Part shown: positions 37,871 through 39,999 of the stretch, one piece after another | How the letters are laid out: each line of letters begins with the position of its first letter | How positions within the stretch are numbered: the stretch's first letter is position 1 | Source: Candidatus Saccharicenans sp. | GTDB lineage: Bacteria > Acidobacteriota > Aminicenantia > Aminicenantales > Saccharicenantaceae | Length of the DNA stretch: 64,000 nt | Assembly (NCBI GenBank): GCA_030017715.1 | Contig: JASEIU010000005.1 | Span: 1-64,000, forward strand | Direction: 5' to 3' | Made by a program: the position numbers and the translations under genes | The notes under the pieces: generated by a model | The model's database searches: none | Told to the model about the DNA's origin: nothing | The model's input: only the letters and a program-made list of their open reading frames with translations

Positions 37871-37889
37871 AAACTGACGACGTCAGTTT
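37871..37889. promoter_or_regulatory. Candidate operator of the serine hydrolase gene
   Basis: AAACTGAC, a three-base centre (GAC), then GTCAGTTT: a perfect 19-base inverted repeat, 46-64 bases upstream of the minus-strand start at 37825. On the minus strand it falls between a weak TTGTGG and TTATTA, where a repressor dimer would block polymerase. Confidence 0.5.
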
Positions 37890-37999: not shown

Positions 38000-38028
38000 T
38001 TGACAGATCTTTTTTTGGGGATTATATA
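38000..38028 (+). promoter_or_regulatory. Promoter of the asparagine synthetase gene
   Basis: Perfect TTGACA at 38000-38005, a 17-base spacer, then TATATA at 38023-38028 (TATATT also overlaps at 38025). The predicted start near 38035 gives an untranslated leader of about 218 bases before the gene at 38253. Confidence 0.65.
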
Positions 38029-38037
38029 TTAAGGGAA

Positions 38038-38163
38038 ATGAAAACTGAGAAAAGGCAGAAAGAATTCTTCGAGAGAAAGTCTGCCATTATCTCATTAAGT
38101 CTGGCTGTTTTTACAAGACATCAAACCCTCAATAATAATTCCCTCAATAACGTCCCCTTCTAA
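38038..38163 (+). CDS. Candidate Asn-rich leader peptide of the asparagine synthetase gene
   Basis: A 41-residue reading frame starting three bases after the predicted transcript start and ending in TLNNNSLNNVPF. Five of its last eleven residues are Asn (AAT at 38131, 38134, 38137, 38146; AAC at 38149). The final Asn codon touches a perfect hairpin (38151-38170), and the stop TAA sits in its loop. This is what a ribosome-mediated attenuator sensing charged tRNA-Asn should look like, and the gene downstream makes asparagine. Weak points: the ATG is almost leaderless (AAGGGA is only one base away), and AAT is easy to get by chance in AT-rich DNA. The rest of the peptide is unremarkable. Confidence 0.5.
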   Translation: MKTEKRQKEFFERKSAIISLSLAVFTRHQTLNNNSLNNVPF

Positions 38164-38170
38164 GGGGACG
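38151..38170 (+). terminator. Candidate attenuator hairpin
   Basis: CGTCCCCTTCTAAGGGGACG is a perfect 9-bp stem with a two-base closing loop (in RNA a slightly wider loop would open). A modest T stretch follows at 38176-38180. It overlaps the last five codons of the leader peptide. Alternative pairing of its AGGGG arm with either of two CCCTCAATAA repeats upstream is possible. Confidence 0.5.
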
Positions 38171-38252
38171 ACTCTGATTTTAAGCCACCATTTTACTTTC
38201 AGACTATAGTTCTGTAACTTTTCTAAATTTCAAAATCTTCTGGAGGTTAAAA

Positions 38253-39179
38253 ATGATTGATATAAGTCAGGTGCTTCAGGATATCAGTTCTTCGGAACTT
38301 CATCAGGCGATTCAGGTTCAGACTAAGCTGGTCAGCTTGATCAGAGAAATTTTAGTGAGAGAAAAATTCGTCGAGCTGCTGCCTGTTATTATCTCGCCCC
38401 TTACTGACCCATTAACCGATTTCCGGGTGAGGGGAGAGGTTGAATGTTATGGCTTCAAATACCAGATCACCAAAAGCATGATTTTTCACAAACAGATGGC
38501 GGTCAAAGCCTTCCCCCGAATTTTCTGTTTTTCTCCCAATGTGAGAATTGAACCGGCGGAAAGGCGAGACAGCGGACGGCATCTGATTGAGTTTGTTCAG
38601 CTCGACCTGGAAGTCAGAGGAGCAACCAGGGAGGAAGTTATTGAACTGGGAGAAAAGCTCTTTTCTAACGTTATTGAAGGAATAAAAGGTTTGGCCGGGC
38701 CAGAACTGACCGAGCTTGGCCGGAAACTACCGAACTTCACTCCACCTTTTGAAAGAATTACTTATGAGGAAGCAGTTAAGACCTATGGGGAAGATTTTGA
38801 ACTAAAACTTTCGAGTTCGGTCAAAAAGCCTGTCTGGCTGGTAGATTTTCCCATCGAGATCAGAGAATTTTATGACCGGGAATATGGAGACCGACCGGGC
38901 ATCCTGGTTGACATGGACCTGATTTATCCTGAAGGCTACGGTGAAGCCCTTTCCGGTGGAGAACGAGAGTACCAGGTTGAGAGAATTCAGGAACGAATAA
39001 GGAAAAAAGGGATAGACCCTGAAGCCTATACAATTTATCTGAAGCTGGCAGAAAGCGGTCTATATCCTTCGGCCGGGTTTGGTTTTGGAATTGAGAGGCT
39101 GACCAGGTTTGTTTGCGGTCTTGGGGATATCGGCCGGACCAGGCTTTTTGCCAAAAAACCCGGTCAGTTCACGCTGTAA
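38253..39179 (+). CDS. Asparagine synthetase, AsnRS-paralogue (archaeal) type
   Basis: A 308-residue class II synthetase core without the N-terminal anticodon-binding domain. It closely resembles the archaeal AsnRS-derived asparagine synthetase known from Pyrococcus abyssi, which joins aspartate and ammonia using ATP. Shared features: LLPVIISPLTDPL near residue 44, KSMIFHKQMA near 81, motif 2 NVRIEP...GRHLIEFVQLDLEV, PREFYDRE-like IREFYDREYGDRPG, YPEGYGEALSGGEREYQ and motif 3 FGFGIERLTRFVCGL. Bacteria normally use AsnA or AsnB instead, so lateral transfer from archaea is likely. GGAGG at ideal distance. It is behind a possible Asn attenuator. A diverged aspartyl/asparaginyl-tRNA synthetase is the main alternative, but the missing domain argues against it. 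Confidence 0.85.
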   Translation: MIDISQVLQDISSSELHQAIQVQTKLVSLIREILVREKFVELLPVIISPLTDPLTDFRVRGEVECYGFKYQITKSMIFHKQMAVKAFPRIFCFSPNVRIEPAERRDSGRHLIEFVQLDLEVRGATREEVIELGEKLFSNVIEGIKGLAGPELTELGRKLPNFTPPFERITYEEAVKTYGEDFELKLSSSVKKPVWLVDFPIEIREFYDREYGDRPGILVDMDLIYPEGYGEALSGGEREYQVERIQERIRKKGIDPEAYTIYLKLAESGLYPSAGFGFGIERLTRFVCGLGDIGRTRLFAKKPGQFTL

Positions 39180-39243: not shown

Positions 39244-39835
39244 ATGGCCATTTATCGTGAGCGAGATAAAACGGCTTACCCGGAGGTATGGATTCTTTTA
39301 AGGAGGTTATCAGCGTCAGCTTTTCGGTCAGGGCCGGGGAATCGGCCGACTACCCGGGGCCTGACGGCGTGGGTAAAAGCACCGCCATCATATGCTGGTC
39401 TGCTCAGGCCCACCTCAGGTGAAATTTTCTGCATGCCATGGCGGCAATGTCTGAAAGTACTTAATCTGATTCAGGGAGTTGCTCGGTTATGTACCGGAGG
39501 AGCCGGCCATCTTTTACCATTTTAGTGCCTGTGATTATCTGCTTTTGGTCGGAAGTATCCGTCTCCATGATTATTAAGGGCTAAAGCACAGGAAAAAATC
39601 GTTATGTATGTGTTTGACCTGGCCGGCGATAGGTATTCGGGGACAGCCTCCTTTTCTAAGGGTATTGTCTCGAAGGTGCTGATGTCAGCAGCTCTGCTTC
39701 TTAGCCCGGAGGTTCTCCTGCTGGATAAGCCACTGTTCGCTCATGATTTTGCTACCGCTTTAGTGGTTGGAAAGTAGATATGAGAGCTATCAGCCGATGG
39801 ACGGATAATCATCGTTTCCTCCTTTCTAAAAAAAT
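39244..39835 (+). pseudogene. Decayed ABC transporter ATPase
   Basis: Pieces of one ABC ATPase occur in order but in different frames. VSFSVRAGE then Walker A GPDGVGKSTA is near 39357; GLLRPTSGEI near 39398 is in another frame; GYVPEEPAIFYHFSA from 39485 is in the third frame. FDLAGDRY, the signature region SFSKGIVSKVLMSAALL and the Walker B remnant VLLLDKPL (normally DEP) reach 39735. After stops, ELSADGRIIIVSSF near 39782-39825 is the expected end region. At least three frameshifts and several stops make it non-functional. No permease remnant is clear downstream. Confidence 0.85.
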
Positions 39836-39999
39836 CATCATGGGGACGTTCTCTCTCCTGGCGAGAGCAGAATGCACGTTCTATTACTACTTTATCTGGT
39901 CTCTTTTGCTGCTTAATTAACATTTTTGATTGATGGCCGGCCACGAAGGATACAGGATTCTGTTAAGCCTTCCAGCTCGTGAAATTATGCCTGATGAGC

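Follow-up and report, generated by a model that had tools for sequence, protein, structure and literature searches.

The locus described here raises the question of whether a short reading frame ending in asparagine codons, located upstream of an archaeal-type asparagine synthetase gene (asnA), serves as a sensor for the amino acid that this enzyme makes. We analysed a stretch of 64,000 nucleotides (the window) and compared it with related genomes. A cis-acting, ribosome-mediated attenuator that would sense charged tRNA-Asn upstream of asnA is very probable, because the Asn-codon leader is conserved, its hairpin covaries, the arrangement is strictly tied to asnA and parallel leaders occur in other phyla. 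The promoter, reading frame, five Asn codons, stop codon, inverted repeat, CCCTCAATAA direct repeat and asnA itself were all recovered where the original prediction had placed them (Table 1).

Table 1. Features of the asnA locus and the basis of each assignment.
Feature	Coordinates	Strand	Basis
Promoter, sigma-70-type, TTGACA-N17-TATATA (or TATATT at N19)	38000..38028	+	predicted from sequence
Leader ORF, 41 codons, MKTEKRQKEFFERKSAIISLSLAVFTRHQTLNNNSLNNVPF-stop, near-leaderless	38038..38163	+	in-frame counterpart in 17/17 Aminicenantota asnA genes
Stem 1 (5' stem within leader ORF)	38046..38094	+	predicted, z -1.6
Five Asn codons (AAT AAT AAT TCC CTC AAT AAC), proposed sensor	38131..38151	+	3-7 in last 12 codons, 17/17 genomes
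Hairpin CGUCCCCU-UCUA-AGGGGACG, leader stop in loop	38151..38170	+	folding, shuffles, comparison
Spacer, unstructured, C/U-rich, G-poor; candidate Rho-loading region	38171..38238	+	composition and folding
asnA Shine-Dalgarno GGAGG	38242..38246	+	sequence reading
asnA, asparagine synthetase A, archaeal type, AsnRS paralogue, 308 aa	38253..39179	+	NCBIfam NF005054

The asnA product scores 378 bits against NCBIfam NF005054, an asparagine synthetase A equivalog model with a cut-off of 309, and a separate relative of AsnRS size is found elsewhere in the same genome. Among named relatives, Candidatus Saccharicenans (phylum Aminicenantota) stands closest, at 83% identity. Since the upstream neighbour, a beta-lactamase-family gene, is divergent and the downstream gene convergent, asnA is probably transcribed alone. 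Between the asnA promoter and this divergent beta-lactamase-family gene lies a perfect inverted repeat of 9 bp, AAACTGACG-A-CGTCAGTTT (37871-37889); 1.41 Mb of the genome contain no second copy of it, and it looks like an operator. On the other side of asnA, reading by eye revealed frame-broken remains resembling an ABC-transporter ATPase before the convergent gene (39244-39944), with a Walker-A-like GPDGVGKSTA in one frame and LGYVPEEP and LLLSPEVLLLDKP in others. These remains probably represent a decayed gene.

The predicted asnA promoter consists of a -35 TTGACA (38000-38005), 17 bases and TATATA (38023-38028); an alternative -10 box, TATATT, lies two bases further on (19-base spacer) and scores slightly higher. 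The leader ATG at 38038 follows about 10 bases 3' of the -10 box. The frame ends in NNNSLNNVPF (TLNNNSLNNVPF) with a TAA at 38161-38163, and 89 bases separate this stop from the asnA ATG at 38253. Three of the Asn codons occupy 38131-38139 and two 38146-38151, partly within the direct repeat CCCTCAATAA (copies at 38126-38135 and 38141-38150). The leader ORF lacks a clear Shine-Dalgarno site, which counts against the attenuator reading. The near-leaderless ATG, originally listed as a weak point, turned out to be a conserved property: in nearly all of 17 Aminicenantota genomes the ATG lies 7-17 bases 3' of the -10 box, and a comparable promoter stands at an equal distance from it.

These 17 genomes, drawn from relatives and named genomes, are those having asnA together with its upstream DNA. 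The original prediction had proposed to align the upstream regions and ask whether they retain the Asn codons, the hairpin and the place of the stop against a changing remainder of the peptide. This is the pattern observed: the leader and these three elements are retained in 17/17. The leader peptides are 35-49 residues long and have little in common beyond their C-terminus, (N)n-V-P-[F/L/V/C]-stop, from which VHF, VPLL and VPFGGRLT deviate in one genome each. The last Asn codon is AAC in 11 genomes and AAT in six, and the stop, always at the same position, is TAA (11), TAG (5) or TGA (1). The first ATG past the promoter shares the frame of the Asn run in 16/17 genomes, against a chance of one third for each; in the remaining genome it is the second ATG, five bases on. 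We infer from this coding conservation that the leader is translated, since the last Asn codon switches at its wobble base, the stop codons interchange, the first ATG is in frame and the remaining peptide sequence diverges.

The arrangement is also confined to a single gene. Searching 94 genomes of the order with the pattern AAYAAYGTCCCCN{3,9}GGGGAC gave matches in 14, one in each and always upstream of asnA; the reversed pattern, used as a control, had zero matches in the same genomes. A scan of 1.41 Mb on both strands, half of the same genome, for a codon run, a hairpin over the stop and a downstream gene gave three matches, among which the asnA leader is the sole convincing one; no other convincing stop-in-hairpin leader was found in this scanned half.

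The hairpin had originally been described as a perfect 9-bp stem. Nine complementary bases are indeed present, but pairing all of them would leave a 2-base loop, and the helix is therefore effectively 8 bp with a UCUA loop. Its first base is the wobble base of the final Asn codon in the leader. In the window it lies 3.8 sd below dinucleotide-shuffled sequences, and over the 17 genomes 4.2 sd below on average. The foot pair, formed by this wobble base and the base after GGGGAC, is C-G in 10 genomes, U-A in 4, U.G in 2 and C.A in 1, and the U-A cases fall in at least three separate places of the AsnA tree. In 48 leaders from three phyla, with Hydrothermota represented by a single genome beside Aminicenantota and Bipolaricaulota, the register of the helix relative to the last Asn codon is constant, and compensatory changes, affecting both sides, were found at three of six helix pairs (0, 2 and 4). 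Within Aminicenantota the arms GUCCCC/GGGGAC are almost invariant, although a stem alone would tolerate changes. A simple stem role does not account for this near-invariance, which is a point against the attenuator reading; a sequence-specific role or a codon constraint (Val-Pro, GTC CCC) is a possible explanation. Further upstream, the predicted stem 1 has a group mean z of -0.94 ± 0.32, with position and pairs that differ between genomes, and the evidence for it is weak to moderate.

Leaders ending in Asn codons also precede the same gene outside Aminicenantota. Most Bipolaricaulota examined have an Asn-ending leader with a G+C-rich hairpin located at the stop or beside it (for example, GPANTNAPLGA-stop and VNNPFF(C)VHNPNASF-stop), and in one Hydrothermota genome the leader ends in NNNVPR-stop, again with a G+C-rich hairpin. 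Three Thermotogota (L116, L121, L125) carry long Asn runs of 5-7 codons followed by U-tract terminators, and their leaders look like textbook Asn attenuators. Competing helices were likewise seen in these three, which include the cultured Athalassotoga saccharophila NAS-01 (L116). Archaeal and Caldisericota relatives of asnA have no such leader upstream and form a natural negative control. The leader types track the AsnA tree clade by clade. Five bins, assigned to Thermotoga (L107), Neomarinimicrobiota (L079 and L083), Clostridiales (L060) and Atribacteria (L104), fall inside other clades, and are probably misassigned or reflect transfers. In L104, L105 and L109, short frames rich in Gln and Asn codons lie upstream of asnA with their stop next to or inside a hairpin (by-eye reading for L104, QQNQHLLFHQQANQNAV-stop); such frames may sense Gln and Asn jointly.

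Taken over all these leaders, asparagine sensing through a translated leader is well supported by the comparison. That asnA would respond to asparagine, and in the direction of more asnA when asparagine is low, we infer from the same comparative evidence. Several ways in which such a leader could act on the gene, and two in which it would not sense asparagine at all, have to be weighed against these data.

Translational attenuation, as in ermC-type and mycobacterial polycysteine systems, would have the leader region mask the asnA Shine-Dalgarno site until stalling of a ribosome at the Asn codons exposes it. It finds its best case in one Bipolaricaulota group, where a leader segment CCCCTTGGG just 5' of the Asn codons is complementary over ~9-13 bp to the site CCCAAGGGG of asnA, with a matched change in L075 (CCCCTAG / CTAGGGG). 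This complementarity suggests translational attenuation in that group, but the pairing statistics are modest even there (mean z -1.27). In Aminicenantota, pairing of the leader with the Shine-Dalgarno region does not exceed that of shuffles or of mismatched partners (matched pairs -10.5 kcal/mol, mismatched ones -10.3 kcal/mol, mean z -0.42), and on predicted folds a simulated stall leaves accessibility of the site unchanged, at 0.30 to 0.32. Masking in Aminicenantota is not borne out by these duplex and accessibility tests on predicted folds, and we consider translational attenuation an unlikely account of the locus. The Bipolaricaulota leaders with Shine-Dalgarno complementarity (CTCCCTTGGG / CCCAAGGGAG) are those of L102, L106, L107, L062, L075, L079, L080 and L082.

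Classical transcription attenuation, with the hairpin at 38151-38170 as an intrinsic terminator whose formation a stalled ribosome prevents, is improbable. The hairpin is strong, G+C-rich and directly 3' of the sensor codons, the Thermotogota versions have true terminators, and a loose terminator scan (5 T in 8) does list it. Its tail in the window, however, is ACUCUGAUUU, and a U-tract follows the hairpin in 0/17 genomes, even though a few terminators in this genome carry 6-7 U immediately 3' of their stem. The position of the stop in the loop argues against a classical terminator as well, since a ribosome finishing the leader would open the hairpin too. Nor is an antiterminator visible, because the 3' arm has no partner better than chance: its pairing with the leader is at shuffle level (z 0.06), and with the spacer it pairs less than chance (z +0.97). 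The CCCTCAATAA repeat had been proposed as the competing strand; it is absent in other genomes, and with 3'-arm pairing at shuffle level, neither it nor any C-run of the leader was retained as an antiterminator. Of the attenuator as originally drawn, the Asn-codon leader before an asparagine synthetase is supported and the hairpin as terminator is not.

It is very improbable that the hairpin is simply the binding site of a regulatory protein, or an RNA-stabilising element, with the short frame incidental. The near-invariant GUCCCC/GGGGAC would fit such a role, but the Asn codons, the reading frame and its start and stop are conserved as features of translation, and in other phyla a different hairpin sequence occupies the corresponding position with respect to the Asn codons. 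Chance has a negligible probability: AT-rich DNA does favour AAT and AAC, and the AT-rich region had been noted as a weak point, but the hairpin z of -3.8, an arrangement kept in 17/17 genomes with one occurrence per genome, zero control matches and a sole convincing case in 1.41 Mb contradict it.

For the Asn-sensing attenuator, Rho-dependent termination is the likeliest output, with slightly less than an even chance should the rest of the model hold. We arrive at Rho, or another U-tract-independent form of termination, because a U-tract terminator, an antiterminator and masking of the Shine-Dalgarno site are all unsupported in Aminicenantota. A rho gene is present in 13/13 genomes tested. 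The spacer of the window has a C minus G excess of 0.125 of its length, which ranks it among the highest 4.6% of 174 intergenic stretches delimited by crude ORF calls on part of the genome; spacers average 23% C versus 11% G, a C>G skew that is modest and varies from 0.03 to 0.24 of length, and show no excess structure (mean z -0.07, 17 genomes). By crude ORF calls, U-tract terminators were found at 1/27 gene ends within the window and at 5/42 convergent ends in 400 kb, versus 1.2 expected. The small number of U-tract gene ends suggests that transcription in this lineage ends mostly through Rho or by another non-intrinsic route.

A ribosome with a codon in its A site covers about 12 bases downstream, and from this geometry a sequence of events can be proposed. 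Ribosomes would begin translating the leader at the AUG, which lies within a few bases of the 5' terminus of the RNA. A shortage of charged tRNA-Asn would make them stall, and probably form a queue, at the Asn codons abutting the hairpin, and a stalled ribosome would cover the 5' arm and loop and hold the hairpin open. When tRNA-Asn is charged, ribosomes would reach the stop in the loop and leave, after which the hairpin could form; a ribosome at the stop would also cover the hairpin, so that closing would be possible only after release. The closed hairpin would then join the bare, C/U-rich leader and spacer, on which Rho could load, whereas stalled and queued ribosomes on a leader of 35-49 codons might, speculatively, shield the RNA from Rho. 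A stalled ribosome would leave much of the spacer bare, which is a point against such shielding. More tentatively, we hypothesise an attenuator that has two states but neither a terminator hairpin nor an antiterminator, in which the presence of a ribosome where the leader ends inside the hairpin would decide Rho access and outputs would have been swapped between lineages: a U-tract terminator in Thermotogota, masking of the Shine-Dalgarno site in some Bipolaricaulota and Rho in Aminicenantota. This wider scheme is possible, and we would sooner expect part of it to fail than all of it to hold.

If these leaders work as proposed, asparagine would join the amino acids sensed through leader-peptide attenuation. 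Rfam searches of the region (T-box up to E = 10) and of eight related loci returned no riboswitch, T-box or leader family, and no description of an Asn leader peptide was found in the open-licence literature, in line with the original prediction; subscription papers lay outside this scope, so that absence is no proof. Naville and Gautheret (2010; PMC2965389) considered leader-peptide systems unknown outside Proteobacteria and Actinobacteria except for their own Firmicutes his case, and stated that their own terminator-based screen misses Rho-dependent cases. The Asn leaders occur in deep-branching, almost wholly uncultured phyla, in which no leader peptides were known to that 2010 study. With one enzyme family, Asn leaders throughout and output stages that apparently differ by lineage, evolution in which a sensor is kept and its output changed becomes directly testable. 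For lineages in which U-tract terminators are rare at gene ends, the leaders also offer a way to approach regulation.

Among known systems, the LEU element of Actinobacteria (PMC1262725) resembles the asnA leader in that a codon run of the leader ORF takes part in RNA structure; its Leu codon run, however, pairs with the leuA Shine-Dalgarno site, and no such pairing was found in Aminicenantota. T-box riboswitches likewise sense uncharged tRNA upstream of amino-acid genes, but they bind the tRNA directly, whereas the asnA leader would sense it through a translated ORF. With attenuators of the trp/his/ilv/leu type the asnA leader shares a short ORF with codons for the product, an adjoining hairpin and a position upstream of a biosynthetic gene. 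It differs in having neither a U-tract terminator nor an antiterminator, in its stop inside the hairpin, its near-leaderless start and asparagine as the amino acid sensed. It would work like leader-peptide attenuation while standing, given the missing terminator and antiterminator features, outside the classical terminator/antiterminator family.

The polycysteine leader ORFs of mycobacterial cys operons (PMC1262725; Canestrari et al. 2020, as cited in PMC13236596 and PMC9031893) offer a further comparison. Like the asnA leader, they are leaderless short ORFs with a codon run near the stop and no U-tract terminator; they differ in reading Cys rather than Asn, in belonging to another phylum and in lacking a conserved hairpin (PMC1262725). 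PolyY motifs, candidate Rho sites, have been proposed between the mycobacterial cys leaders and their gene (PMC1262725). According to two citing papers (PMC13236596, PMC9031893), the polycysteine leaders act at translation in M. smegmatis; they also give a precedent for a near-leaderless AUG. The mycobacterial cys leader (PMC1262725) is the closest parallel. The asnA leader would be an Asn-specific version of leader-peptide attenuation, apparently undescribed, with an unusual anatomy.
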